DNA of 64,000 nt. It comes from Pseudomonadota bacterium. GTDB taxonomy: Bacteria; Pseudomonadota; Alphaproteobacteria; Micropepsales; Micropepsaceae. Positions 38,815 through 53,752 of the stretch are shown piece by piece; position 1 is the stretch's first letter, and the number at the start of each line of letters is the position of its first letter. Made by a program: the position numbers and the translations under genes. Below the pieces are notes generated by a model. It saw only the letters and a list, made by a program, of their open reading frames with translations, was not told the DNA's origin and ran no database searches. Location: positions 62,001 through 126,000 of the forward strand of contig JAFEEQ010000018.1 of NCBI GenBank assembly GCA_018241025.1, written 5' to 3'.

Positions 38815-39243
38815 ATGACAACGCAGACGGAAACGTCGGGCGGCGCAGAGCCATGCGTTGCCGACACGCACCCCGAATACTGGAGAAACCTAACCGCAGA
38901 GGACATCCCGCCCGGATGGATCGACAACATGGTCAAACGTCTCTTCAACGAATTGAACCGTCAGATGATCCGCGCCGAAAAGATCGCGGAGAAGATGCCC
39001 GAGAAGAAAGACCACGACGGCAACCTCATCGACGATCCCGAGCAGCGCGAGCAGAACGCGCGCACGCTCGCACGCCTCGAAGCCTCGCTCACCCGCCTTA
39101 CCAAAATGGAGATGGAACGTGCCGCGCTTCGCACCACCAAGGCCGCCCGCACCCGAACGGAATCCCGTAGCGCCATACGACGCAAGCTTCTGGCAAAATC
39201 TCACGCCGGAAGAACTGGACGCGGCGCTGGAGACGCTCAATGA
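38815..39243 (+). CDS. GTA small terminase candidate (TerS, gp1)
   Basis: 142-aa highly charged, helical protein. It has a central long helix (WIDNMVKRLFNELNRQMIRA, then ARTLARLEASLTRLTKMEME) typical of a coiled-coil oligomerisation domain, as in GTA TerS proteins that lack the usual DNA-binding domain and so package non-specifically. Position directly in front of TerL, with a 125-base overlap, is the main evidence. A ribosome-like AGG is present. It could alternatively be another head accessory. Confidence 0.6.
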   Translation: MTTQTETSGGAEPCVADTHPEYWRNLTAEDIPPGWIDNMVKRLFNELNRQMIRAEKIAEKMPEKKDHDGNLIDDPEQREQNARTLARLEASLTRLTKMEMERAALRTTKAARTRTESRSAIRRKLLAKSHAGRTGRGAGDAQ

Positions 39244-40450
39244 CCAGGAAGCGGAATTCGTCTGCGCCGACTGGCTCCTCAACGCCCGGCCCGAACAGCT
39301 CGCGCCGCAAGGCGACTGGCGCATCTGGCTTTTCCTCGGCGGACGCGGCGCCGGAAAAACGCGTAGCGGCGCCGAATGGATCGCGGAAGGCGTCGCCAAT
39401 GGCGCCATGCGCCGCATCGGCCTCCTCGGCGCCACGTACGACGATGCGCGGGCGGTCATGATCGAAGGCGAATCCGGATTGCTCGGCGTCAGTGAGGGCG
39501 CGGATTTCGAGCCGTCGCTGCGCCGCGTGCGCTGGCCGAACGGCGCGATCGCCCGCGTGCTCAGCGCCGACGAGCCCGATTCCATCCGTGGCCACCAGTT
39601 CGATACGATCTGGGCCGATGAGTTCGCCAAATGGCCCGATCCGCAGGGCGCGCTCGACATGGCGCTGATGGCGCTCCGCCTCGGCACCGATCCGCGCATG
39701 GCGATCACCACCACGCCGCGCGCCATCGAGGCGTTGCTCGAACTGGTGACCTCGCCCGATGTCGCGGTGACGAAGAGCGCCACCGCCGCCAATGCCGCGC
39801 ATCTCGCCCCCGGCTTTCTCGAGACGATGCAGCGCCGCTATGGCGGCTCGCGCCTCGGCCGCCAGGAGCTCGATGCCGAGCTGATCGAGGACAACGACGC
39901 CGCGCTCTGGCGCCGCGCCTGGATCGAGGACACCCGCGTGAAATCCGCGCCGCCGCTCGCCCGTATCGTCATCGCCGTCGATCCGCCGGTGAGCGCCGAT
40001 GGCGACGAATGCGGTATCGTGGTCGCGGGCCGCGTGGCAGATGACGGCGACGGCTACGTCCTCGCCGACATGTCGCTCGGCGGTCTCACGCCGCAGCGCT
40101 GGGCCGAACGCGTCGCCGACGCCTATGAGGCGCACAAGGCCGACAGCGTCGTCGCCGAAGCCAACCAGGGCGGCGAGATGGTGAAACATGTTCTGCAGCA
40201 GGCCCACGCCCATCTGCCGGTCCGTCTCGTCCACGCGACGCGCGACAAGCGCACCCGTGCGACACCGATTGCCGCGCTCTACGAGGCCGGCCGCGTCCAT
40301 CACATTGGCGTCCTGCCGGAGCTCGAAGACCAGCTCTGCCAGTTCGACGGAACCGGCAGCAGCCCCGACCGCCTCGATGCCCTGGTCTGGGCACTGAGCG
40401 AGCTCTTCCCGCCGGTGAGGCCGGCGAATCCGAAAATCAGAAGCGTTTAA
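39119..40450 (+). CDS. GTA large terminase (gp2, TerL)
   Basis: 443-aa packaging motor of a gene transfer agent. Walker A is GGRGAGKT (74-81) and Walker B IWADEFAKW (about 165), followed by a C-terminal RNase H-like nuclease with acidic residues in IAVDPPVSADGDECG and SSPDRLDALVWAL. Links to headful packaging of host DNA. It starts at GTG 39119 inside the TerS gene and ends at a repeat element. Confidence 0.93.
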   Translation: MPRFAPPRPPAPERNPVAPYDASFWQNLTPEELDAALETLNDQEAEFVCADWLLNARPEQLAPQGDWRIWLFLGGRGAGKTRSGAEWIAEGVANGAMRRIGLLGATYDDARAVMIEGESGLLGVSEGADFEPSLRRVRWPNGAIARVLSADEPDSIRGHQFDTIWADEFAKWPDPQGALDMALMALRLGTDPRMAITTTPRAIEALLELVTSPDVAVTKSATAANAAHLAPGFLETMQRRYGGSRLGRQELDAELIEDNDAALWRRAWIEDTRVKSAPPLARIVIAVDPPVSADGDECGIVVAGRVADDGDGYVLADMSLGGLTPQRWAERVADAYEAHKADSVVAEANQGGEMVKHVLQQAHAHLPVRLVHATRDKRTRATPIAALYEAGRVHHIGVLPELEDQLCQFDGTGSSPDRLDALVWALSELFPPVRPANPKIRSV

Positions 40451-40614: not shown

Positions 40615-41787
40615 ATGAAAGACAAGAACATGCTCCCCTTCCTCCGCCGCCCTCCGCAGCAGAAATCCACGCCGCTCATCGCGCTCTCGCTCTCCGGTGC
40701 TCCGCACTGGGGCGCGCGCGACTATGCCGGCCTCGCCCGCGCCGGCGTGATGCGCAATGCCGTGGTCTATCGCTGCGTGCGCATGATCGCCGAAAGCGCC
40801 GCCGCCGTGCCCTTCCTGCTCTATGACGGCGATGCCGAGCTCGGCACCCATCCGCTGCTCGCGCTCCTCGCCCGGCCCAATCCGGAAGAGGACGGCGCGA
40901 CCTTCTTCGCGCGCTGGTATTCCTTCCTGCAATGCGCCGGCAACGCCTATCTCGAAGCCGCGCTGTTCGGCGGCGAGGTCAAGGCGCTTTATCTCCTGCG
41001 GCCCGACCGTGTCGCGGTCGTGCCGGGTGCGCGCGGCTGGCCCGCGGCCTACGACTACACCGTCGACGGCCGCACCACCCGCATCGCGCGCGACACGGCG
41101 AGCGGCTTTCTGCCGGTGCTCCACACCACGCTGTTCCATCCGCTCGACGATCACTACGGCCTCTCCCCGGTCGAAGCCGCGGCCAATGCGATCGAGGTCC
41201 ACAACGCCGGCGCCGCCTGGACCAAGGCGCTGCTCGACAATGCGGCGCGGCCCTCCGGCGCGCTTATCTATCGCGGCCCCGACGGCGCGCCCGGCCTCAC
41301 CGACGACCAGTTCGCGCGGCTCAAGCGCGAGCTGGAAGATGCCTATCAGGGCGCCGGCAATGCCGGCCGTCCGATGGTCCTCGAAGGCGGCCTCGACTGG
41401 AAAAGCATGAGCTACACCCCGGCCGACATGGATTTCGCCTCGACCCGCGACGTCGCCGCGCGCGAGATCGCGCTCGCCTTCGGCGTGCCGCCGATGCTGC
41501 TCGGCATCCCGGGCGACAACACCTATTCGAACTATCGCGAGGCCAACCTGTCCTTCTGGCGCCAGACGGTGCTGCCGCTGGTCGGCCGCACCGCGAGCGC
41601 GCTGACCCACTGGCTCAGCCCCCGCTTCGGCGAGACCCTGCGCCTCGCCTACGACGCCGACGCGGTCGACGCCCTCGCCATCGAACGCGAAAGCATCTGG
41701 GACCGCCTCAACGCGGCGACGTTCCTGACGACCGACGAAAAGCGCGCCGCCGCGGGATATGGGCCGGCGGGCGATGTGGTAGGCTGA
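40615..41787 (+). CDS. GTA portal protein (gp3), HK97 family
   Basis: 390-aa portal of the HK97 family. Conserved blocks are VYRCVRMIAESAAAVPFLLYD near residue 45-65, NAYLEAALFGGEVKALYLLRPD, and FASTRDVAAREIALAFGVPPMLLGIPGDNTY's core. Forms the dodecameric DNA entry ring of the capsid. ATG 40615 sits directly behind the repeat-derived GGAGG. It is followed by an extra, non-GTA gene. Confidence 0.93.
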   Translation: MKDKNMLPFLRRPPQQKSTPLIALSLSGAPHWGARDYAGLARAGVMRNAVVYRCVRMIAESAAAVPFLLYDGDAELGTHPLLALLARPNPEEDGATFFARWYSFLQCAGNAYLEAALFGGEVKALYLLRPDRVAVVPGARGWPAAYDYTVDGRTTRIARDTASGFLPVLHTTLFHPLDDHYGLSPVEAAANAIEVHNAGAAWTKALLDNAARPSGALIYRGPDGAPGLTDDQFARLKRELEDAYQGAGNAGRPMVLEGGLDWKSMSYTPADMDFASTRDVAAREIALAFGVPPMLLGIPGDNTYSNYREANLSFWRQTVLPLVGRTASALTHWLSPRFGETLRLAYDADAVDALAIERESIWDRLNAATFLTTDEKRAAAGYGPAGDVVG

Positions 41788-41792
41788 TAAAG

Positions 41793-42506
41793 ATGAAGTC
41801 GGTCCTGCTCATCCTGGCGTTTGTGCTGCTGCCGGTTGCGGCAACTGGCGGCGACGCTTCGCTCGATGTACTCGAACCCGGTCCAGCCTTCGGCACAACA
41901 AACAGCGAATATGACGGCATCGTTCGCGCGGTCTTTCCAGAAGCCTTTATGTCCGATGTCCGCGCCGACATGCTGAGCGTGCCGTCCATGGCTCTCGTAA
42001 GCCTCTCACCGGCCGGCAAAGAGATCTACAGCGGAGAGGCCGTCGTCGGCGTCAAGACACGGCTGGGCACATCTTTCATCTTCGCATCGGAGGCGCATAC
42101 GAGGCTTTGGGACTATACGGCCGAAGGTCTGCGCGCGGCGGCACAACTCCATATTCCGTTGCGCCCAGCGCGGCAGGAGTTGATCCGGCCGAAGCATTGC
42201 GAGCGGCCAATCGATGCGTCGCTTGCGATGCGGATCATCCAGTCCTGGAACGCGATGCTGCAGTTGACGCACGCTGATCCCAATAGCCGTCACGGTGCCG
42301 ATGGCGACACGTATTTCTTTTCTGCGGAAATTGACGGCCGGACGCTGTCGGGCAGCACATGGTCTCCGGGCGGTGGCAAGCTGGCGGCACTGACGAACCT
42401 CGCGAATGATATGGAGGCCTGGTGCATGCGCGAGCGCCGCCTCTCCGATCTCCGTACCGACCTCGGCTATCTCGAGACACTTCTGAAACGACCCGCCGCA
42501 CCATGA
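41793..42506 (+). CDS. Secreted hypothetical protein inserted in the GTA cluster
   Basis: 237-aa protein with a signal peptide (KSVLLILAFVLLPVAATGG). The mature part has four to five aromatic/hydrophobic strands and two cysteines (KHCERPIDASL and EAWCMRER). No relation to phage proteins. Codon use is less GC-biased than in the flanking GTA genes. The stop overlaps the start of g3.5 (ATGA), so it is translated with the cluster. Its product would be exported rather than packed; role unknown. Confidence 0.65.
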   Translation: MKSVLLILAFVLLPVAATGGDASLDVLEPGPAFGTTNSEYDGIVRAVFPEAFMSDVRADMLSVPSMALVSLSPAGKEIYSGEAVVGVKTRLGTSFIFASEAHTRLWDYTAEGLRAAAQLHIPLRPARQELIRPKHCERPIDASLAMRIIQSWNAMLQLTHADPNSRHGADGDTYFFSAEIDGRTLSGSTWSPGGGKLAALTNLANDMEAWCMRERRLSDLRTDLGYLETLLKRPAAP

Positions 42507-42905: not shown

Positions 42906-43511
42906 ATGACCATCATTCAGCACGTGAGGCCCCGCCTCGCGCGAACGAACACGCCTGTGCGCCTGGCCGCACTCGGTCCCGACGGCTTCGAGGGTTACGC
43001 CTCGCTGTTCCGCGTCGCCGACGGCGCGGGCGACATTGTCGTCCCCGGGGCGTTTGAGCGCTCGCTTCGCCGCCGCCCGCCCGACCGCGTGCGGCTGCTC
43101 TATCAGCACGACGCGAACGAGCCGATCGGCGTCTGGGAAGAGATCCGCGAGGACGCCAGGGGCCTCTATGTCCGCGGCCGCTTCGCGCTCGAAGTCGAGA
43201 AGGCGCGCGACGTGCGCGAACTCGTCGCCGCCGGCGCGCTCGACGGATTGTCCATCGGCTTTCGCGCCGTCCGCGCCCGCCGCGGCAACGGCACCCGAAC
43301 CCTGCTCGAGATCGAGCTCTGGGAAATCTCGATCGTCACCTTCCCGCTGCTCGAAGGCAGTGCGGTGACGGCGATCGGGACCAAGTCCACCATCCAAGGA
43401 GAACACGCATGGAATACGAAACCAAAGCCGCGTCGCCCGAGATCCGCGACGCTTTCGACGACTTCCTTTCCGCCTTCGAGCAGTTCAAGGCGGCCAATGA
43501 TGAGCGGCTGA
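42906..43511 (+). CDS. GTA prohead protease (gp4), HK97 family S78
   Basis: 201-aa HK97-type prohead protease: GYASLFRVADGAGDIVVPGAF, catalytic His in LLYQHDANEPIGVW (about 68), Ser in ALDGLSIGFRAV (about 118) and the nearby Glu. It cleaves the scaffold part of the capsid protein. Its last 34 residues overlap the capsid gene by 103 bases and have low-complexity composition, so the natural end may have been lost. Confidence 0.9.
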   Translation: MTIIQHVRPRLARTNTPVRLAALGPDGFEGYASLFRVADGAGDIVVPGAFERSLRRRPPDRVRLLYQHDANEPIGVWEEIREDARGLYVRGRFALEVEKARDVRELVAAGALDGLSIGFRAVRARRGNGTRTLLEIELWEISIVTFPLLEGSAVTAIGTKSTIQGEHAWNTKPKPRRPRSATLSTTSFPPSSSSRRPMMSG

Positions 43512-44650
43512 CCCAGCTCGAACGCCGCTCTTCCGATGTCGTCACCGAAGAGAAGGTCGACCGCATCAACAAGGCGCTCGACGAACAGAAGCGCGCGCTG
43601 GACACGCTGATCCTCGATGCCGCGCGCCCCGCGCTCGGCACCGAGCGCAAGGCGAACGACCTCGACACGCGCGAATCCAAGGCGGCGTTCGACCGCTATG
43701 TCCGCAAGGGCGATGCCCAGGGTCTCGCCGCGCTCGAGCTCAAGACCACCGCCTCGTTCAGCGCCGGCACGCCGGGCGATGGCGGCTACACGGTGCCGCT
43801 CGAGATCGAGACCACCATCGACCGCGTGCTGGCGAAAGCCTCGCCGATCCGCGCCATCGCCACGGTGCGGCGCATCGGCGGCAATGTCTATCGCAAGCCC
43901 ATCGCCACGGCCGGCGCCGCCACCGGCTGGGTTGCCGAAACCGCGTCGCGGCCGCAGACCGACACGCCGACCCTCGCGGTGATCGACTTCCCGGCGATGG
44001 AGCTCTACGCCATGCCGGCGGCGACGCCGACCCTGCTCGACGACAGCGCGGTCGACATCGAACGCTGGCTCGCCGATGAGGTGCAGACCGTCTTCGCCGA
44101 ACAGGAAGGCGCCGCTTTCGTCAGCGGCAACGGCACCACGGCACCGAAGGGCTTCCTGTCGGAGACCATCGTCGCCGATGCGAGCTGGGCCTGGACCAAG
44201 CTGGGCTATATCGCGAGCGGCGCCGACGGTGCCTTCGCCTCGTCGAACCCGACCGATGCGCTGGTCAGCCTCGCCTATGCGCCGAAGCAGGCCTATCGCG
44301 CCAACGGCACCTGGGTGATGAATCGCAAGACCGAAAGCGTGATCCGCAAGTTCAAGGACACCACCGGCAACTACATCTGGTCGCCGGGCGTCGCTGCCGG
44401 CCAGCCGCCGACGCTGCTGGGCTATCCGGTCGCCGAAGCGGAGGACATGCCGGATATCGACTCCGACAGCTACTCGATCGCTTTCGGCGACTTCGCGCGC
44501 GGTTATCTCATCGTCGACCGCATCGGCATCCGCACCCTGCGCGATCCCTACAGCGCCAAACCCTATGTGCTGTTCTACACGACCAAGCGCGTCGGCGGCG
44601 GCGTCCAGAACTTCGAAGCGATCAAGCTGATGAAGTTCGCTGCGTCCTGA
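43409..44650 (+). CDS. GTA major capsid protein (gp5), HK97 fold
   Basis: 413-aa HK97-fold capsid protein. Residues 1-110 are the helical delta domain (DAFDDFLSAFEQFKAANDER) removed by the protease; the mature shell probably starts near TTASFSAGTPGDGGYTVPLE. E-loop, A-domain and C-terminal FDFAR/GYLIVDRIGIRTLRDPY follow. Several hundred copies make the GTA head. A large inverted repeat follows directly. Confidence 0.94.
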   Translation: MEYETKAASPEIRDAFDDFLSAFEQFKAANDERLTQLERRSSDVVTEEKVDRINKALDEQKRALDTLILDAARPALGTERKANDLDTRESKAAFDRYVRKGDAQGLAALELKTTASFSAGTPGDGGYTVPLEIETTIDRVLAKASPIRAIATVRRIGGNVYRKPIATAGAATGWVAETASRPQTDTPTLAVIDFPAMELYAMPAATPTLLDDSAVDIERWLADEVQTVFAEQEGAAFVSGNGTTAPKGFLSETIVADASWAWTKLGYIASGADGAFASSNPTDALVSLAYAPKQAYRANGTWVMNRKTESVIRKFKDTTGNYIWSPGVAAGQPPTLLGYPVAEAEDMPDIDSDSYSIAFGDFARGYLIVDRIGIRTLRDPYSAKPYVLFYTTKRVGGGVQNFEAIKLMKFAAS

Positions 44651-46154: not shown

Positions 46155-46565
46155 ATGTCTGCCCAGAAAGGCAAAGACCTGCTCATCAAGATCGGCGATG
46201 GCGCCGATCCGGAAACCTTCACCACCGTCGCCGGATTGCGCGCGACCTCGCTCGCCTTCAACGCCCAGAGTGTCGATATCACCAATGCCGATTCCACCGA
46301 TCAGTGGCGCGAGCTGCTCTCCGGCGGCGGCATCAAGAATGCGACGCTCTCCGGCAACGGGGTGTTCAAGGATGCGGCGTCGGACGCCACGCTGCGCAGC
46401 GCCTTCTTCGACCAGAGCTGCCCGAACTTCCAGGTCGTGATCCCGAGCTTCGGTGCCGTCACCGGCCCGTTCAAGATCGTGTCGCTGAGCTATGAGGGGC
46501 CTTACGACGGTGAACTCAAGATCGCGTTGTCGCTCGCCAGCGCCGGTGCGCTCAGCTTCGCCTGA
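46155..46565 (+). CDS. GTA major tail protein (gp9)
   Basis: 136-aa tail tube protein of the TP901-1/GTA type: GKDLLIKIGDGADPETFTTV, SVDITNADSTDQWRELL and PFKIVSLSYEGPYDGELKIALSLASAG. Hexamers stack to the tail tube. AAGGAG precedes ATG 46155. Confidence 0.93.
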   Translation: MSAQKGKDLLIKIGDGADPETFTTVAGLRATSLAFNAQSVDITNADSTDQWRELLSGGGIKNATLSGNGVFKDAASDATLRSAFFDQSCPNFQVVIPSFGAVTGPFKIVSLSYEGPYDGELKIALSLASAGALSFA

Positions 46566-46569
46566 TGGA

Positions 46570-46704
46570 TCAGGACGTCGTGATCGGGCTGTCGGTGCTC
46601 GCACCCGGCGCGCCCTCGGCGTCCGCACCGTCAAGCCGGCGCAATACGGGCTGGAGCCAGGGCTGTTTCTCCGTCTCTTTCATGACGGTGTGATCGTTAT
46701 GCAT
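46570..46704 (-). CDS. 44-aa antisense peptide gene in the GTA cluster, RiPP-precursor-like
   Basis: A 44-codon frame on the minus strand starts at ATG 46704 with GGAGGAG four bases upstream, a far better ribosome site than most neighbours. The peptide has a charged leader with PWLQPVLRRLDGADAE, which resembles the lasso-peptide leader motif YxxPxLxxxG (W for Y), and then a Gly-starting tail GAPGASTDSPITTS with Asp at position 8, as needed for a macrolactam ring. The Thr usual at position -2 is missing and no maturation enzymes are in the window. It ends 4 bases from the g9 stop. The 240-base g9-g10 gap otherwise holds no gene. Confidence 0.5.
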   Translation of the reverse strand: MHNDHTVMKETEKQPWLQPVLRRLDGADAEGAPGASTDSPITTS

Positions 46705-46804
46705 GTCTCTCCTCCGCATCTCTAAGACGCAAACGGTGAAGCTGCAAAATGGATGCGGAAGTTCCCGTACCGGCGCATCCGCCACTGCATGAAGGATTCC
46801 TGCT

Positions 46805-47170
46805 ATGACCAATCGCATCCGTGGCGAAGCCGCGCTGGACGCTGGCGGCAAGCGCTATCGCCTGCTGCTTACCCTCGGCGCCCTGGCCGAGATTGAGGGC
46901 GGTCTCGGACTCACCGATCTCTCCGCCGTCGACGCGCGCCTGAAGTCGGTGCGTGCCGCCGATCTCGCCGTCGTCGCGGCGGCGCTTTTGCGTGGCGGCG
47001 GTCACGATCTGACGCCGGCCGATGTGTTGCGTCTGCCCGTCGACCTGGGCGCGCTCGTCGCCGCGGTCAGCGAGGCTTTCGCCGCTGCCGGCCTCGAAAC
47101 CCGCGAAGGCATGGGCGACGACCGCCCTTTCGCTGGAGCGATCTCCTCGCCGCCGGGCTCGGCCGGCTGA
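46805..47170 (+). CDS. GTA gp10 (DUF3356-type tail protein; zero frame)
   Basis: 121-aa protein of the GTA gp10 family (NRIRGEAALDAGGKRYRLLLTLGALAEIE, SAVDARLKSVRAADLAVVAA). Like the first of two tail assembly chaperones, it precedes the tape measure gene. Near its end (47125-47131) it carries CCCTTTC in the X-XXY-YYZ register. A -1 shift there gives a 164-aa fusion with the gp10.1 domain. Confidence 0.88.
   Translation: MTNRIRGEAALDAGGKRYRLLLTLGALAEIEGGLGLTDLSAVDARLKSVRAADLAVVAAALLRGGGHDLTPADVLRLPVDLGALVAAVSEAFAAAGLETREGMGDDRPFAGAISSPPGSAG
47125..47131 (+). promoter_or_regulatory. Candidate programmed -1 ribosomal frameshift site
   Basis: The heptamer C-CCT-TTC in the gp10 frame is a perfect slippery sequence (CCC, TTT, C). 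It is followed by GGAGCGATCTCC, which can form a short hairpin 4 bases downstream, and by further GC-rich hairpins. A shift gives the frame that encodes gp10.1. Confidence 0.65.
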
Positions 47171-47298
47171 AGCTGTCGCCCGACGTATTCTGGAATCTCT
47201 CGCTGCCGGAATGGCGCGCACTTGTCGCGCCGCTATCCGGCGGCGCATCGCTCGCCCGCGCCGAATTCGAGCGCCTCCTGCAACAGCACCCGGATTGA
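47131..47298 (+). CDS. GTA gp10.1-like tail assembly chaperone, read in -1 frame
   Basis: After the slippery site the -1 frame encodes RWSDLLAAGLGRLKLSPDVF, then WNLSLPEWRALVAPLSGGAS and ends with RLLQQHPD. This is the gp10.1 (rcc01693) type: about 55-60 residues with F-W-x-L-S/T-P-x-E. No ATG, GTG or TTG occurs in this frame between its previous stop (46894-46896) and this region, so independent initiation is not possible with standard starts. It is most simply made as a fusion with gp10. The tape measure gene starts 3 bases after the stop. Confidence 0.75.
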   Translation, partial: RWSDLLAAGLGRLKLSPDVFWNLSLPEWRALVAPLSGGASLARAEFERLLQQHPD

Positions 47299-47301
47299 AC
47301 C

Positions 47302-47829
47302 ATGGCCGATACACCCATCGATCAAAGCCTCGGCGCCGCCGCCGATGCGCTGTCGAATTTCGTCTCCGGTCCGGTGCAGAGCGCGACGCGAACCATCGAA
47401 ACCGCGGTGACGCGCAGCTTCACCAGCGTCGAGAACACCATCGCGCGGGCCGTGTTGAGCGGCAAGCTCTCGATGGACAGCCTGGTGACGGCCATCCTCG
47501 CCGACTTCGACCGCATCGCCACGACGCGGTTCATCGTCAAGCCGATCGAACAGGCGATCACGTCGATTGCGGGCGCGATCCTGCCCGTCGGCGGTGCCCG
47601 CGCCGCAGGCGGTCCCGTCGATGCCGGGGTGCCCTATCTCGTCGGCGAGCAGGGCCCCGAGCTCTTCGTACCCAAAGGCGCCGGCGACATCGCACCCAAT
47701 GCCGCGCTGAAGAGCGCGCAGATCGTACTCAACGTCACCGCGCAGGATGCGGGCAGCTTCCTGAAATCCGAAACCCAGATCGCCGCGATGCTCGCGCGTG
47801 CTTTGGCGCGCGGGCGGAGGAATTTGTGA
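47302..47829 (+). CDS. GTA tape measure protein (gp11), short
   Basis: 175-aa tape measure protein: helical N-terminus (QSLGAAADALSNFVSGPVQS, ATRTIETAVTRSFTSVENTI) and the widespread C-terminal GGPVDAGVPYLVGEQGPELFVP. The small size matches the short GTA tail. AACC then ATG. It overlaps gp12 by one base. Confidence 0.92.
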   Translation: MADTPIDQSLGAAADALSNFVSGPVQSATRTIETAVTRSFTSVENTIARAVLSGKLSMDSLVTAILADFDRIATTRFIVKPIEQAITSIAGAILPVGGARAAGGPVDAGVPYLVGEQGPELFVPKGAGDIAPNAALKSAQIVLNVTAQDAGSFLKSETQIAAMLARALARGRRNL

Positions 47830-48455
47830 TGGCCTTTCACGATGTGAGATTCCCCACCGCCATCGCCTTCCACTCGACCGGCGGGCCGGAGCGCAAGACC
47901 GAGATCATCACCCTCGGCTCCGGCTTCGAAGAGCGCAACGCGGTCTGGACGAATTCGCGGCGGCGCTACGATGCCGGCTATGGCGTGAAGACGCTGGCCG
48001 ACATTCATGCGGTGATCGCCTTCTTCGAGGCGCGCAACGGCCGGCTCCACGCCTTCCGTTATCGCGACCCGCTCGATTTCCAGTCGGCAGTGCCGGGCGC
48101 GAACGTAACGCCGCTCGACCAGCCGCTCGGCACCGGCGACGGCACGACGACGGTGTTCGCCCTGAACAAGACCTACATCTCCGGTCCGGCAAGCTGGACG
48201 CGCCGCATCGACAAGCCGGTCGCCGGCAGCGTGCGCATCGCCGCCGATGGCATCGAATGCGTCTCCGGCTTCACCGCCGACGCGACGGCGGGAACGATCG
48301 CCTTCGACACCGCCCCCGCCGATGGCGCCGTGCTCACCGCGGGCTTCGCCTTCGACGTACCGGTACGCTTCGACACCGACCGCCTCGCGATCAACCTGGC
48401 GAATTTCGAAGCCGGCGAGATCCCGTCGATCCCGCTCATTGAAGTTCGCCTCTGA
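47829..48455 (+). CDS. GTA distal tail protein (gp12, DUF2460)
   Basis: 208-aa DUF2460 protein: FHDVRFPTAIAFHSTGGPER, ERNAVWTNSRRRYDAGYGVK and LADIHAVIAFFEARNGRLHAF. Corresponds to phage distal tail protein. The start ATG 47829 overlaps the tape-measure stop (TGATG). Confidence 0.93.
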   Translation: MAFHDVRFPTAIAFHSTGGPERKTEIITLGSGFEERNAVWTNSRRRYDAGYGVKTLADIHAVIAFFEARNGRLHAFRYRDPLDFQSAVPGANVTPLDQPLGTGDGTTTVFALNKTYISGPASWTRRIDKPVAGSVRIAADGIECVSGFTADATAGTIAFDTAPADGAVLTAGFAFDVPVRFDTDRLAINLANFEAGEIPSIPLIEVRL

Positions 48456-49831: not shown

Positions 49832-52800
49832 ATGGCCTCTCTCGTTCTCGGCGTCGTCGGCTCCGAGCTCGGCAGCTCGTTGCTCGGCACCGGCGCCTTT
49901 CTCGGCATCACCGGCGCGCAGCTCGGCGGCGCGATCGGTGCCTTTATCGGCACAGAGATCGACGCCGCTCTCAGCCCCGGCACCCATCGCACCGGCCCGC
50001 GCCTCGCCGACACGTCGCTGCAGGCCTCGCTCGAAGGCGCGCCGATCCCGCGTCTCTATGGCCGCGTGCGCGTCGCCGGCCAGGTGATCTGGGCCAGCCG
50101 CTATCGCGAAACCCAAAGCACGAGCAGCAGCGGCGGCGGCAAGGGCATCTTCGGCCCCCCGGCGAGCGAGACCGATTATCTCTATTCGATCTCTTTCGCC
50201 GTCGGTCTCTGCACCAAGGCCACTCGCATCGGCCGCATCTGGGCCGACGGCAATCTGCTCGATCCGTCCGGCTACACGCTGCGCTTCCACGACGGCCGCG
50301 AGACGCAGGATCCCGATCCGTTGATCGAATCCATCGAAGGCGCGGACAACGCGCCCGCCTTCCGCGGCCTCGCCTATATCGTGTTCGAGGACATGCCGCT
50401 CGCTGCTTTCGGCAATCGCATCCCGCAGCTTCAGTTCGAGATTTTCCACAATCTCGCCGCCGCCGATCCCGACGCGCTCGAGAACCGGCTCACCGGCGTC
50501 GCGCTCATCCCCGGCGCAGGCGAGTTCGTCTATGCCGACACCATCGAAAGCGATGACGATGGCGAAGGCGGCACGCTGCCGCTCAACGTCCACAACGCCG
50601 CCGGCACCAGCGACATCGACGCCTCACTCGATGATCTCACCGCGCTGGCGCCCAACATGGCGGCGGCCTCGCTGGTGCTGGGCTGGTTCGGCAGCGACCT
50701 GCGCGCCGGCGCCTGCACGGTGAAGCCCGGCGTCGAGCTCGCCTCGCGCAAGACCTATCCCGACACCTGGCGGGTGAACGGCATCGCCCGCGCCGACGCG
50801 CATCTCGTCAGCCAGCTCGACAGCCGCCCGGCCTATGGCGGCACGCCGTCGGATGCTTCGGTCGTCGAAGCGATCCGCAATCTGAAAACCCGCGGCCTCG
50901 CCGCAATGCTCTGCCCCTTCGTCTTCATGGATATCGCGAGCGGCAACACGCTGACCGATCCCTATACCGGCGCGGCATCGCAGCCGGCCTATCCCTGGCG
51001 CGGCCGCATCACCTGTTCGCCCGCGCCCGGCGCCCCAGGATCGGTCGACGGCACCGCCACGGCGACGACACAGGTGAACGCCTTCTTCGGCAGCGCCACT
51101 GCCGCCGACTTCACCGTCGATGGCGAAAGCGTGTCGTGGAGCGGCGGCAGCGATTGGGGCTTCCGCCGCATGGCGCTGCACTATGCGCTGCTCGCCGTCG
51201 CGGCCGGCGGCGTCGATGCCTTCCTGATCGGCAGCGAATTCCGCGGTCTCACGCAGATCCGCGACGACACCGGCGCCTATCCCGCCGTCGCCGCGCTCAA
51301 AGCCCTCGCCGCCGATCTGCGCGCGATCCTCGGCAGCTCCGTGAAGCTCGGCTATGCCGCCGACTGGAGCGAATATGCCAACCACCAGACAGGCGGCGGC
51401 GAGGTGTTCTTCCATCTCGATCCGCTATGGTCGGATTCGAACATCGATTTCGTCGGCATCGACAACTACCTGCCGCTCGCCGACTGGCGCGACGGCACCG
51501 GCCATCTCGACTACGACCCATCCGGCCCGACCGCGATCCACGATCTGGATTATCTCACCTCGAACATCCGGGGCGGCGAGGATTACGACTGGTATTACGC
51601 CAGCGACGCCGATCGCGCGGCGCAGACCCGCACCCCGATCACCGACGGCGCCGGCAAGCCCTGGGTCTGGCGCGCCAAGGATCTGTGGAACTGGTGGAGC
51701 AACACGCATTACGACCGCCCCGGCGGCAGCGAGAGCGCGACGCCGACCGGTTGGATCGCCGGCAGCAAACCGGTCTGGTTCACCGAGCTCGGTTGCCCCG
51801 CCATCGACAAGGGCGCGAACCAGCCCAATGTCTTCGTCGATCCCAAATCCTCCGAAAGCGCGCTGCCTTACTATTCCAACGGCGAGCGCGACGATCTCAT
51901 GCAGCGCCGCTTCCTCGAAGCCCATCTCGGGTTCTGGGCCGACAGCGCGAACAACCCCGCGGCGACGCTCTACTCCGGCCGCATGGTCGGCAACATCTTC
52001 GTCTGGTGCTGGGATGCGCGGCCCTATCCCTATTTTCCGGCGCGTGCCGATGTCTGGGGCGACGCCGCGAACTGGCGCCTCGGTCACTGGCTGAACGGCC
52101 GTCTCGGTGTCGTTCCGCTCGACGGCCTTGTGGAAGAGATCGCAAGCGAAACGCCCTCGGCGGCAATCGATACCGGCGCACTCGACGGTCTCGTCACCGG
52201 TTTCGCCGTGACCGATACGATGAGCGCGCGCGACGCTCTGGCGCCGCTGGCGCTCGCCTTTCATTTCGACGCGGTCGAAAGCCAGGGCGTGATGCGCTGC
52301 GTGCCGCGCGGCCGACCCGATCCGCAGACACTGAACGAAGACGATCTCGTCATCGCCGAAAACGAAACCGCTGCCTTCGCGCTCACCCGCGCGCAGGAGA
52401 CCGATCTGCCCAACGTCTCGCGCATCGCCTATATCGATGCCGAAGCCGATTACCGCCAGGCGAGCGCCGAGGCACGACGCACCACGGTGCTCTCGGCCCG
52501 CGTCTCGTCATCGTCGCTGCCGCTGGTGATGGACCAGGGCCAGGCCATCGGCATCGGCACGCGGCTGCTGCAGGATGCGTGGGTCATGCGCGAGGGCGCG
52601 CATTTCGCCCTGCCGCCCTCGCGGATCGCCTGCGATCCTACCGATGAGATCCTGCTCGCCGCCGGCGGCCGCACCCATCGCCTGCGTCTCACGCAAATCG
52701 ACGACGCCGGCGCGCGCAGCATCGATGCCGTCGCCACCGATCCGTCGCTCTACGAACCGCTCACCGGTCCGTCGCGCGCACCGGGACAGGTACAGACGCT

Positions 52801-53752
52801 GACCCAATCCGGCCGCGCCGCGCTCGTCTTCCTCGATCTCCCACTCTTGACTGGAAGCGAGATCGCCTGGGCACCGCATGTCGCGGCTTACGCTTCGCCC
52901 TGGCCCGGCAGCGTGCAGGTGATGAAAAGCCCGAGCGACAGCGGCTTCGCCCTGTCGCGCACGCTCACCCGCGCCGCCGTCATCGGCCGCACCACGGCAG
53001 ATTTCTATTCCGGGCCGCTCTGGCGCTGGGACATGGTCAACACCCTTGCCATCCGTCTTTGGTCGGGCACGCTCGCCTCCGCCGACGATCTGGCCGTGCT
53101 CGGCGGCGCCAATGCGCTCGCGGTGCAGAACGCAGACGGCGGGTGGGAAGTGCTCCAGTTCGCCACCGCGACGCTCACCGCGCCGAAGGAATGGTCGCTG
53201 ACCCGTTTGTTGCGCGGGCAGGCGGGCAGCGAAGGCGCGATGCGCGCACCCGTCGCTGCCGGTGCGCCGGTGGTGCTGCTCGACGGCGCTCTGGCGCAGC
53301 TCGATCTCGATCTGTCCGAAGCGACGCTGCCCTTCCACTACGCCTGGGGTCCGGCCGGCAAGCCGCTCTCCGACGCGAGCTGGCAGACGGCAGAAGAACA
53401 ATTCGTCGCCATCGGCCTTCGCCCCTACGCGCCGGTGCAACTCGCGGCCGCGCGTTCGGGCGGCGATGTCGTACTCAGCTGGATACGCCGCACCCGCATC
53501 GGCGGCGACAGCTGGGATCAGACCGACGTGCCGCTGGGCGAAGACAGCGAAGCCTATGAAGTCGACATCCTCGACAGCAGCGACGGCGTGCTGCGCACGC
53601 TGTCGTCTTCGACATCGTCGCTCACCTATACCGCGGCGCAGATCGCGACGGATTTCCCGTCCGGCCTGCCATCGCCGTTGCGTTTCATCGTCTACCAACT
53701 CTCCCCGGCCTACGGCCGCGGCGTTGGCGCCGAAGCAAGCTTCTACCTCTGA
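49832..53752 (+). CDS. GTA baseplate/host-specificity protein with TIM-barrel-like domain (gp15)
   Basis: 1306-aa protein, the largest of the window. N-terminal GTA-type part (GAFLGITGAQLGGAIGAFIGTEIDAALSPG), a glycoside-hydrolase TIM-barrel-like domain (about 380-720; WSGGSDWGFRRMALHYALLA and PVWFTELGCPAIDKG), and a beta-rich phage-tail domain with RLLRGQAGSE near 1124. It forms the baseplate/megatron and binds host capsule. It is 12 bases after gp14. Confidence 0.95.
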   Translation: MASLVLGVVGSELGSSLLGTGAFLGITGAQLGGAIGAFIGTEIDAALSPGTHRTGPRLADTSLQASLEGAPIPRLYGRVRVAGQVIWASRYRETQSTSSSGGGKGIFGPPASETDYLYSISFAVGLCTKATRIGRIWADGNLLDPSGYTLRFHDGRETQDPDPLIESIEGADNAPAFRGLAYIVFEDMPLAAFGNRIPQLQFEIFHNLAAADPDALENRLTGVALIPGAGEFVYADTIESDDDGEGGTLPLNVHNAAGTSDIDASLDDLTALAPNMAAASLVLGWFGSDLRAGACTVKPGVELASRKTYPDTWRVNGIARADAHLVSQLDSRPAYGGTPSDASVVEAIRNLKTRGLAAMLCPFVFMDIASGNTLTDPYTGAASQPAYPWRGRITCSPAPGAPGSVDGTATATTQVNAFFGSATAADFTVDGESVSWSGGSDWGFRRMALHYALLAVAAGGVDAFLIGSEFRGLTQIRDDTGAYPAVAALKALAADLRAILGSSVKLGYAADWSEYANHQTGGGEVFFHLDPLWSDSNIDFVGIDNYLPLADWRDGTGHLDYDPSGPTAIHDLDYLTSNIRGGEDYDWYYASDADRAAQTRTPITDGAGKPWVWRAKDLWNWWSNTHYDRPGGSESATPTGWIAGSKPVWFTELGCPAIDKGANQPNVFVDPKSSESALPYYSNGERDDLMQRRFLEAHLGFWADSANNPAATLYSGRMVGNIFVWCWDARPYPYFPARADVWGDAANWRLGHWLNGRLGVVPLDGLVEEIASETPSAAIDTGALDGLVTGFAVTDTMSARDALAPLALAFHFDAVESQGVMRCVPRGRPDPQTLNEDDLVIAENETAAFALTRAQETDLPNVSRIAYIDAEADYRQASAEARRTTVLSARVSSSSLPLVMDQGQAIGIGTRLLQDAWVMREGAHFALPPSRIACDPTDEILLAAGGRTHRLRLTQIDDAGARSIDAVATDPSLYEPLTGPSRAPGQVQTLTQSGRAALVFLDLPLLTGSEIAWAPHVAAYASPWPGSVQVMKSPSDSGFALSRTLTRAAVIGRTTADFYSGPLWRWDMVNTLAIRLWSGTLASADDLAVLGGANALAVQNADGGWEVLQFATATLTAPKEWSLTRLLRGQAGSEGAMRAPVAAGAPVVLLDGALAQLDLDLSEATLPFHYAWGPAGKPLSDASWQTAEEQFVAIGLRPYAPVQLAAARSGGDVVLSWIRRTRIGGDSWDQTDVPLGEDSEAYEVDILDSSDGVLRTLSSSTSSLTYTAAQIATDFPSGLPSPLRFIVYQLSPAYGRGVGAEASFYL

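Follow-up and report, generated by a model that had tools for sequence, protein, structure and literature searches.

A conserved slippery heptamer points to programmed -1 frameshifting of the gp10/gp10.1 tail chaperone pair in an alphaproteobacterial gene transfer agent

How is a tail assembly chaperone domain made when its reading frame offers no start codon? The question is raised by a gene transfer agent (GTA), a domesticated virus that transports DNA of its host, encoded in the window, as we call the whole 64-kb stretch of DNA that was analysed. By profile matches, the window carries an RcGTA-type cluster that is intact from terminase to megatron, with every component by which this type is recognized: terminase (39119-40450), portal (40615-41787), protease (42906-43511), HK97 capsid (43409-44650), connectors, the major tail tube protein g9 (46155-46565, + strand; TIGR02126 99 bits, PF06199 E 8e-45), a tape measure protein, and the genes from g12 (47829-48455) to the g15 baseplate 'megatron' (49832-53752, + strand). 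The megatron, which is diagnostic of RcGTA-type clusters, scores 1753.7 bits against NF048004, whose cut-off is 800. No integrase or replication protein was found among the ten flanking and cluster proteins that were scanned. An extra ORF between portal and protease (about 41790-42506) begins with the signal-peptide-like MKSVLLILAFVLLPVAATGG, and some 240 nt between g9 and g10 (46566-46804) hold no clear gene in a cluster that is tight elsewhere.

Between the major tail protein and tape measure genes lie two overlapping frames. The zero frame, g10 (46805-47170, + strand), encodes a G-like tail assembly chaperone of 121 residues (Phage_TAC_11/GTA-gp10 in Pfam; PF11836, E 3e-11, residues 6-88). 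The -1 frame holds g10.1 (47128-47298, + strand), a T-like chaperone domain (Phage_TAC_6) that is complete by its match to PF09550 (E 7.6e-17, residues 1-56), while its match to TIGR02216 is weak (E 9e-11) and falls under that family's cut-off. The domain lies where the first-pass annotation had placed it, and its TGA (47296-47298) ends three bases ahead of the tape measure ATG at 47302. That next gene, g11 (47302-47829, + strand; PF09718, E 5e-9), encodes a very short tape measure protein of 175 residues, whose weak match to RcGTA_tape is confined to the C-terminal end. The g10.1 frame is open from 46897, directly behind its last upstream in-frame stop, a TGA at 46894-46896 (+ strand). From this stop to the domain there is no ATG, GTG or TTG, as the annotation had also noted; the near-cognate codons CTG, ATT, ATC and ATA are absent as well. 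At the point where the domain begins, gp10's frame reads C_CCT_TTC (47125-47131, + strand), a slippery heptamer in the register that the annotation had assigned to it: in the -1 frame the same bases give CCC at 47125 and TTT at 47128. The zero frame closes at a TGA (47168-47170, + strand) 36 nt past the heptamer.

We turn to recoding. The gp10/gp10.1 pair of this GTA is very probably expressed by programmed -1 ribosomal frameshifting of the G/GT type, as first proposed from the window's sequence and now supported by phase, a conserved heptamer and missing starts. Ribosomes would read gp10 up to C_CCU_UUC; most would continue and stop 36 nt later, releasing free gp10 of 121 residues. A fraction would slip both tRNAs one base back, CCU to CCC and UUC to UUU, and go on in the -1 frame to yield a predicted gp10-gp10.1 fusion (46805-47298, + strand), which by arithmetic from the sequence would comprise gp10 residues 1-109 and 55 residues of the -1 frame, 164 in all. 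The C_CCU_UUC motif shifts E. coli ribosomes into the -1 frame at a high level (PMC4066793).

Is the heptamer under selection as a nucleotide sequence? Of 96 genomes from the family, 34 gave a PF09550 match, and the same-genus set comprises 27 loci with a g10.1 domain. In all 27, g10.1 lies in the -1 frame with its domain starting at CCCTTT, followed by C in 14, T in nine and G in four. The hexamer is in the slipping phase in every one of them and in neither of the two other phases in any. Counted from the GTA genes of the loci, Pro is encoded by CCC in 159 of 490 cases and Phe by TTT in 83 of 462, so that chance would give the pair in about 6% of genomes (0.32 x 0.18); at the FW motif of the same domain, 22 of 27 loci write the Phe as TTC. 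Neither CCC nor TTT is thus the default codon. In a g12 tree most of the 27 loci are far apart, mostly on long end branches; owing to their shared ancestry they are not independent events. A second hexamer, TTTCCC, is in phase in 23 loci; since lineages with starts have F-P-W too, it is probably kept by the protein sequence and was left out of account. The same 27 assemblies bear on whether the two frames are one gene split by a sequencing error or joined by RNA polymerase slippage. A frame break in any single genome may be an error, but here an identical break recurs at the same heptamer in all 27, and transcript slippage needs a long homopolymer run, which CCCTTTC does not offer; we give such origins a negligible probability.

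The missing start is as consistent as the heptamer. The first-pass annotation had named, as the pattern that would speak against frameshifting, close relatives that share an independent g10.1 start but not the heptamer, and the opposite was found: the heptamer is kept in 27 of 27 loci, and 26 have no ATG, GTG or TTG within the 60 nt that precede it; only L011 differs, with a GTG 18 nt upstream. In five loci a -1 frame stop lies close to the heptamer, at 3 or 6 nt in L010 and L022 and at 12 nt in L004, L012 and L024. None of their short open stretches holds an ATG, GTG or TTG, which excludes ordinary initiation upstream of the domain in these genomes.

Could g10.1 instead be translated from an unconventional start, coupled to gp10, with the heptamer merely reflecting a conserved Pro-Phe-x-Trp? 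Relatives in Rhodobacterales and in Rhodopseudomonas and Afipia do possess ATG or GTG starts at g10.1, and a Shine-Dalgarno (SD)-like element lies upstream in many relatives. The window's open -1 frame, however, contains none of the seven codons ATG, GTG, TTG, CTG, ATT, ATC and ATA, and none occurs in L010 or L022 either, where just one or two codons are open ahead of the heptamer; initiation in frame, near-cognate codons included, was rejected on this ground. Conservation of the protein motif as sole cause of the heptamer was rejected by cross-tabulating codons against starts: among loci outside the genus that encode Pro-Phe at this site, CCCTTT is used in 16 of 19 without a nearby start and in none of eight with one (Fisher p = 7e-5), where the pair is written CCG TTT, CCG TTC or CCT TTT instead. 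The spacing of the SD-like element is also unlike that of a start, peaking 14-21 nt ahead of the heptamer, as against some 12 nt ahead of the start codon where a lineage has one, both measured from the beginning of the pairing stretch. Taken together, we regard independent initiation as highly unlikely.

The end of the zero frame is conserved too. Its stop follows the heptamer by 12-39 nt in 27 of 27 loci, and in 12 of these it is a TAG that arises where the other frame uses CTA for Leu, even though CTA is rare (20 of 998 Leu codons counted). A zero-frame stop that is always so near, often by way of a rare codon, suggests that both products are selected. This matters for another reading, in which g10.1 is a decayed gene of a degenerating cluster that lost its start and yields no product. 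The domain is indeed missing from many genomes of the family, given its presence in 34 of 96, but where present in the window it scores strongly, the cluster around it is intact from terminase to megatron, and the startless layout with both stops and the phase has been kept in 27 diverged relatives. Decay is therefore hard to credit, whereas programmed frameshifting accounts for an overlap, a phase, a conserved heptamer, absent starts and a conserved zero-frame stop that can all be read directly from the DNA.

But what stimulates the slip? The first-pass annotation had seen hairpins behind the heptamer, and these did not hold up: over the 60 nt past the heptamer the mean folding z-score is -0.37, against -0.18 in control stretches of the same loci (p = 0.48), and a downstream hairpin or stem was rejected as a general stimulator. 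Upstream, the picture differs. Stimulatory SD-like sequences have been sought 6-17 nt upstream of slip sites on experimental grounds (PMC4066793). Across the family, pairing with the 16S tail reaches a mean best duplex energy of -8.3 ahead of the heptamer, compared with -4.4 in controls (p = 8e-16), the commonest gap being 9 nt. This exceeds what the gp10 residues impose, as synonymous recoding gave an equally good element in one of 500 shuffles for the genus and in 0 of 500 elsewhere. An SD-like stimulator about 9 nt upstream may thus replace the downstream hairpin in the family. In the window the match is weak: AGGCATGGG (47107-47115, + strand) lies at the family's enriched position, with a 9-nt gap to the heptamer, and its duplex energy of -3.5 is no better than controls in its own genome. 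As the element is so weak there, the heptamer may act nearly alone in this genome.

Beyond the genus, the layout comes and goes. Most other genera of the family have their own ATG or GTG at g10.1 (L016, L019, L030, L031, L032, L059), and L060, likewise of another genus of the family, has GGGAAAC and no start. The startless CCCTTT heptamer appears again in Hansschlegelia (L086, L107, L109), in Hyphomicrobium (L090, L126), in a group formed by L036, L039, L040 and L080, and in L049, L055 and L057, which group with Parvibaculum-like clusters that themselves have starts. Ordinary ATG or GTG starts are found in Rhodobacterales, Rhodopseudomonas, Afipia and Parvibaculum. The annotation's remark that such a frameshift is not standard for GTAs is thus right for the Rhodobacterales-type clusters, which have a start of their own, and too narrow for several other alphaproteobacterial lineages, in which the frameshift layout recurs. 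Outside the genus, CCCTTT occurs 19 times in the slipping phase and zero times and once in the two other phases; for GGGAAA the counts are 11, zero and one. GGGAAA followed by G, C or A stands in the slipping phase, mostly startless, in many families (L041, L048, L060, L062, L066, L067, L070, L074, L118, L120, L144), and in L041, L062, L066 and L067 the zero-frame stop comes no more than 3 nt behind it. By its sequence and phase, GGGAAA would be another class of heptamer that serves the same purpose.

On the g12 tree, a quick one with many weak branches that allows rough counts, the CCCTTT state needs eight changes and frameshift versus start 13. In start lineages, an ATGA or GTGA overlap likewise puts g10.1 in the -1 frame. 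Since this overlap already sets the frame, switching between a start and a frameshift would need no indel, and lineages could switch repeatedly. Several loci combine features of both architectures or sit between them. In one family (L069, L071, L072, L076) the junction reads AACCCTTT(A/G)TGA, a heptamer fused to an ATGA or GTGA start-stop overlap; L076 itself has CCCTTTACCC without that start, apparently an intermediate between the two. In Methylobacterium-type GTAs and in two phages from fresh water or sewage (L043, L116, L158, L159) the junction reads GGGCCCTTGA, GGGCCCTTAA or AAACCCTTGA, which could serve as a slip site or else be a TTGA overlap. A search of named phages returned five weak matches only; the junction reads AAACCCTTGA in two of these, where it may not be a slip site but an overlapping TTGA start and stop. 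The Phage_TAC_6 domain was not detected near g12 in 41 of 80 loci, including the Rhodobacteraceae L088, L091-L097, L108 and L111 among others; these Rhodobacteraceae may rely on another chaperone, or on one that has diverged further.

What would the two products do? Tailed dsDNA phages share a G/GT-type chaperone frameshift, reportedly described by Xu, Hendrix and Duda in 2004, and the lambda heptamer is G_GGA_AAG. As in lambda, the GTA has two overlapping frames between the tail tube and tape measure genes, a startless second frame in -1, a canonical X_XXY_YYZ heptamer at the overlap and a zero-frame stop soon after. It differs in being a gene transfer agent, in its C_CCU_UU(C/U/G) heptamer, in the family-level SD-like element upstream in place of a downstream structure signal, and in that its lineages alternate between a frameshift and an independent start. 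In lambda, the tape measure protein is bound by free gpG and joined to the tail protein by gpGT (PMC5009743). By analogy, gp10 would correspond to G and the fusion to GT: many free copies of gp10 would coat the short tape measure protein g11, the expected partner of gp10, and g9, the tail tube protein and expected partner of the T-like domain, would be brought in by a few fusions through gp10.1. We infer these products, their ratio and their chaperone roles from the phage system. The AlphaFold model of gp10 (pLDDT 82) is consistent with such a role, matching predicted phage tail assembly chaperones in a viral library (for example A0A8S5PUK9, TM 0.64, rmsd 2.3); a fold search of the PDB with gp10 gave no match, and a PDB sequence search nothing useful.

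Closer relatives place the finding among known systems. The RcGTA genes g10 and g10.1 (rcc01693 family) are homologous and in the same order (PF11836, PF09550, TIGR02216), and in RcGTA and Rhodobacterales-type clusters g10.1 is also in the -1 frame, through ATGA or GTGA overlaps. In RcGTA, g10.1 is listed as a separate gene (PMC9765227); Rhodobacterales relatives carry ATG or GTG starts, whereas g10.1 of the present genus is startless. In phiCbK-like Caulobacter phages, some of whose tail proteins are distantly related to those of RcGTA, the tape-measure chaperone gp93/gp94 is extended by a -1 frameshift (PMC3556154); these are true phages rather than GTAs, and their heptamer is AAAAAAC or GGGAAAC. 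For the WOStri GTA-like particle of Wolbachia, a frameshift has been proposed as well, but it is +1 and concerns a hydrolase gene, not a tail chaperone (PMC10299305). A literature search, with most subscription papers outside its reach, found no report of frameshifting in GTA tail chaperones. The mechanism itself is the known phage G/GT frameshift; its recurrence in GTAs, and its alternation there with ordinary starts, appear undescribed.

Finally, we would like to consider what this means for GTAs. We lean towards the view that -1 frameshifting at g10/g10.1 is widespread but switchable in alphaproteobacterial GTAs, with lineages alternating repeatedly between a fusion made at C_CCU_UUY or G_GGA_AAG and two coupled genes that stay separate; such switching would make the covalent chaperone fusion dispensable or replaceable in short-tailed GTAs. 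The startless layout explains how gene callers would come to overlook g10.1 in these genomes or give it a wrong start. If the pair is expressed as we infer, bacteria in which a GTA is maintained as a host trait also hold a viral recoding device under selection, which would be evidence for still-functional tail assembly in these domesticated particles. GTAs also offer a natural comparison of homologous chaperone pairs, joined by frameshift fusion in some and made as separate proteins in others, and this comparison makes the need for a covalent G-T fusion in tail assembly directly testable.
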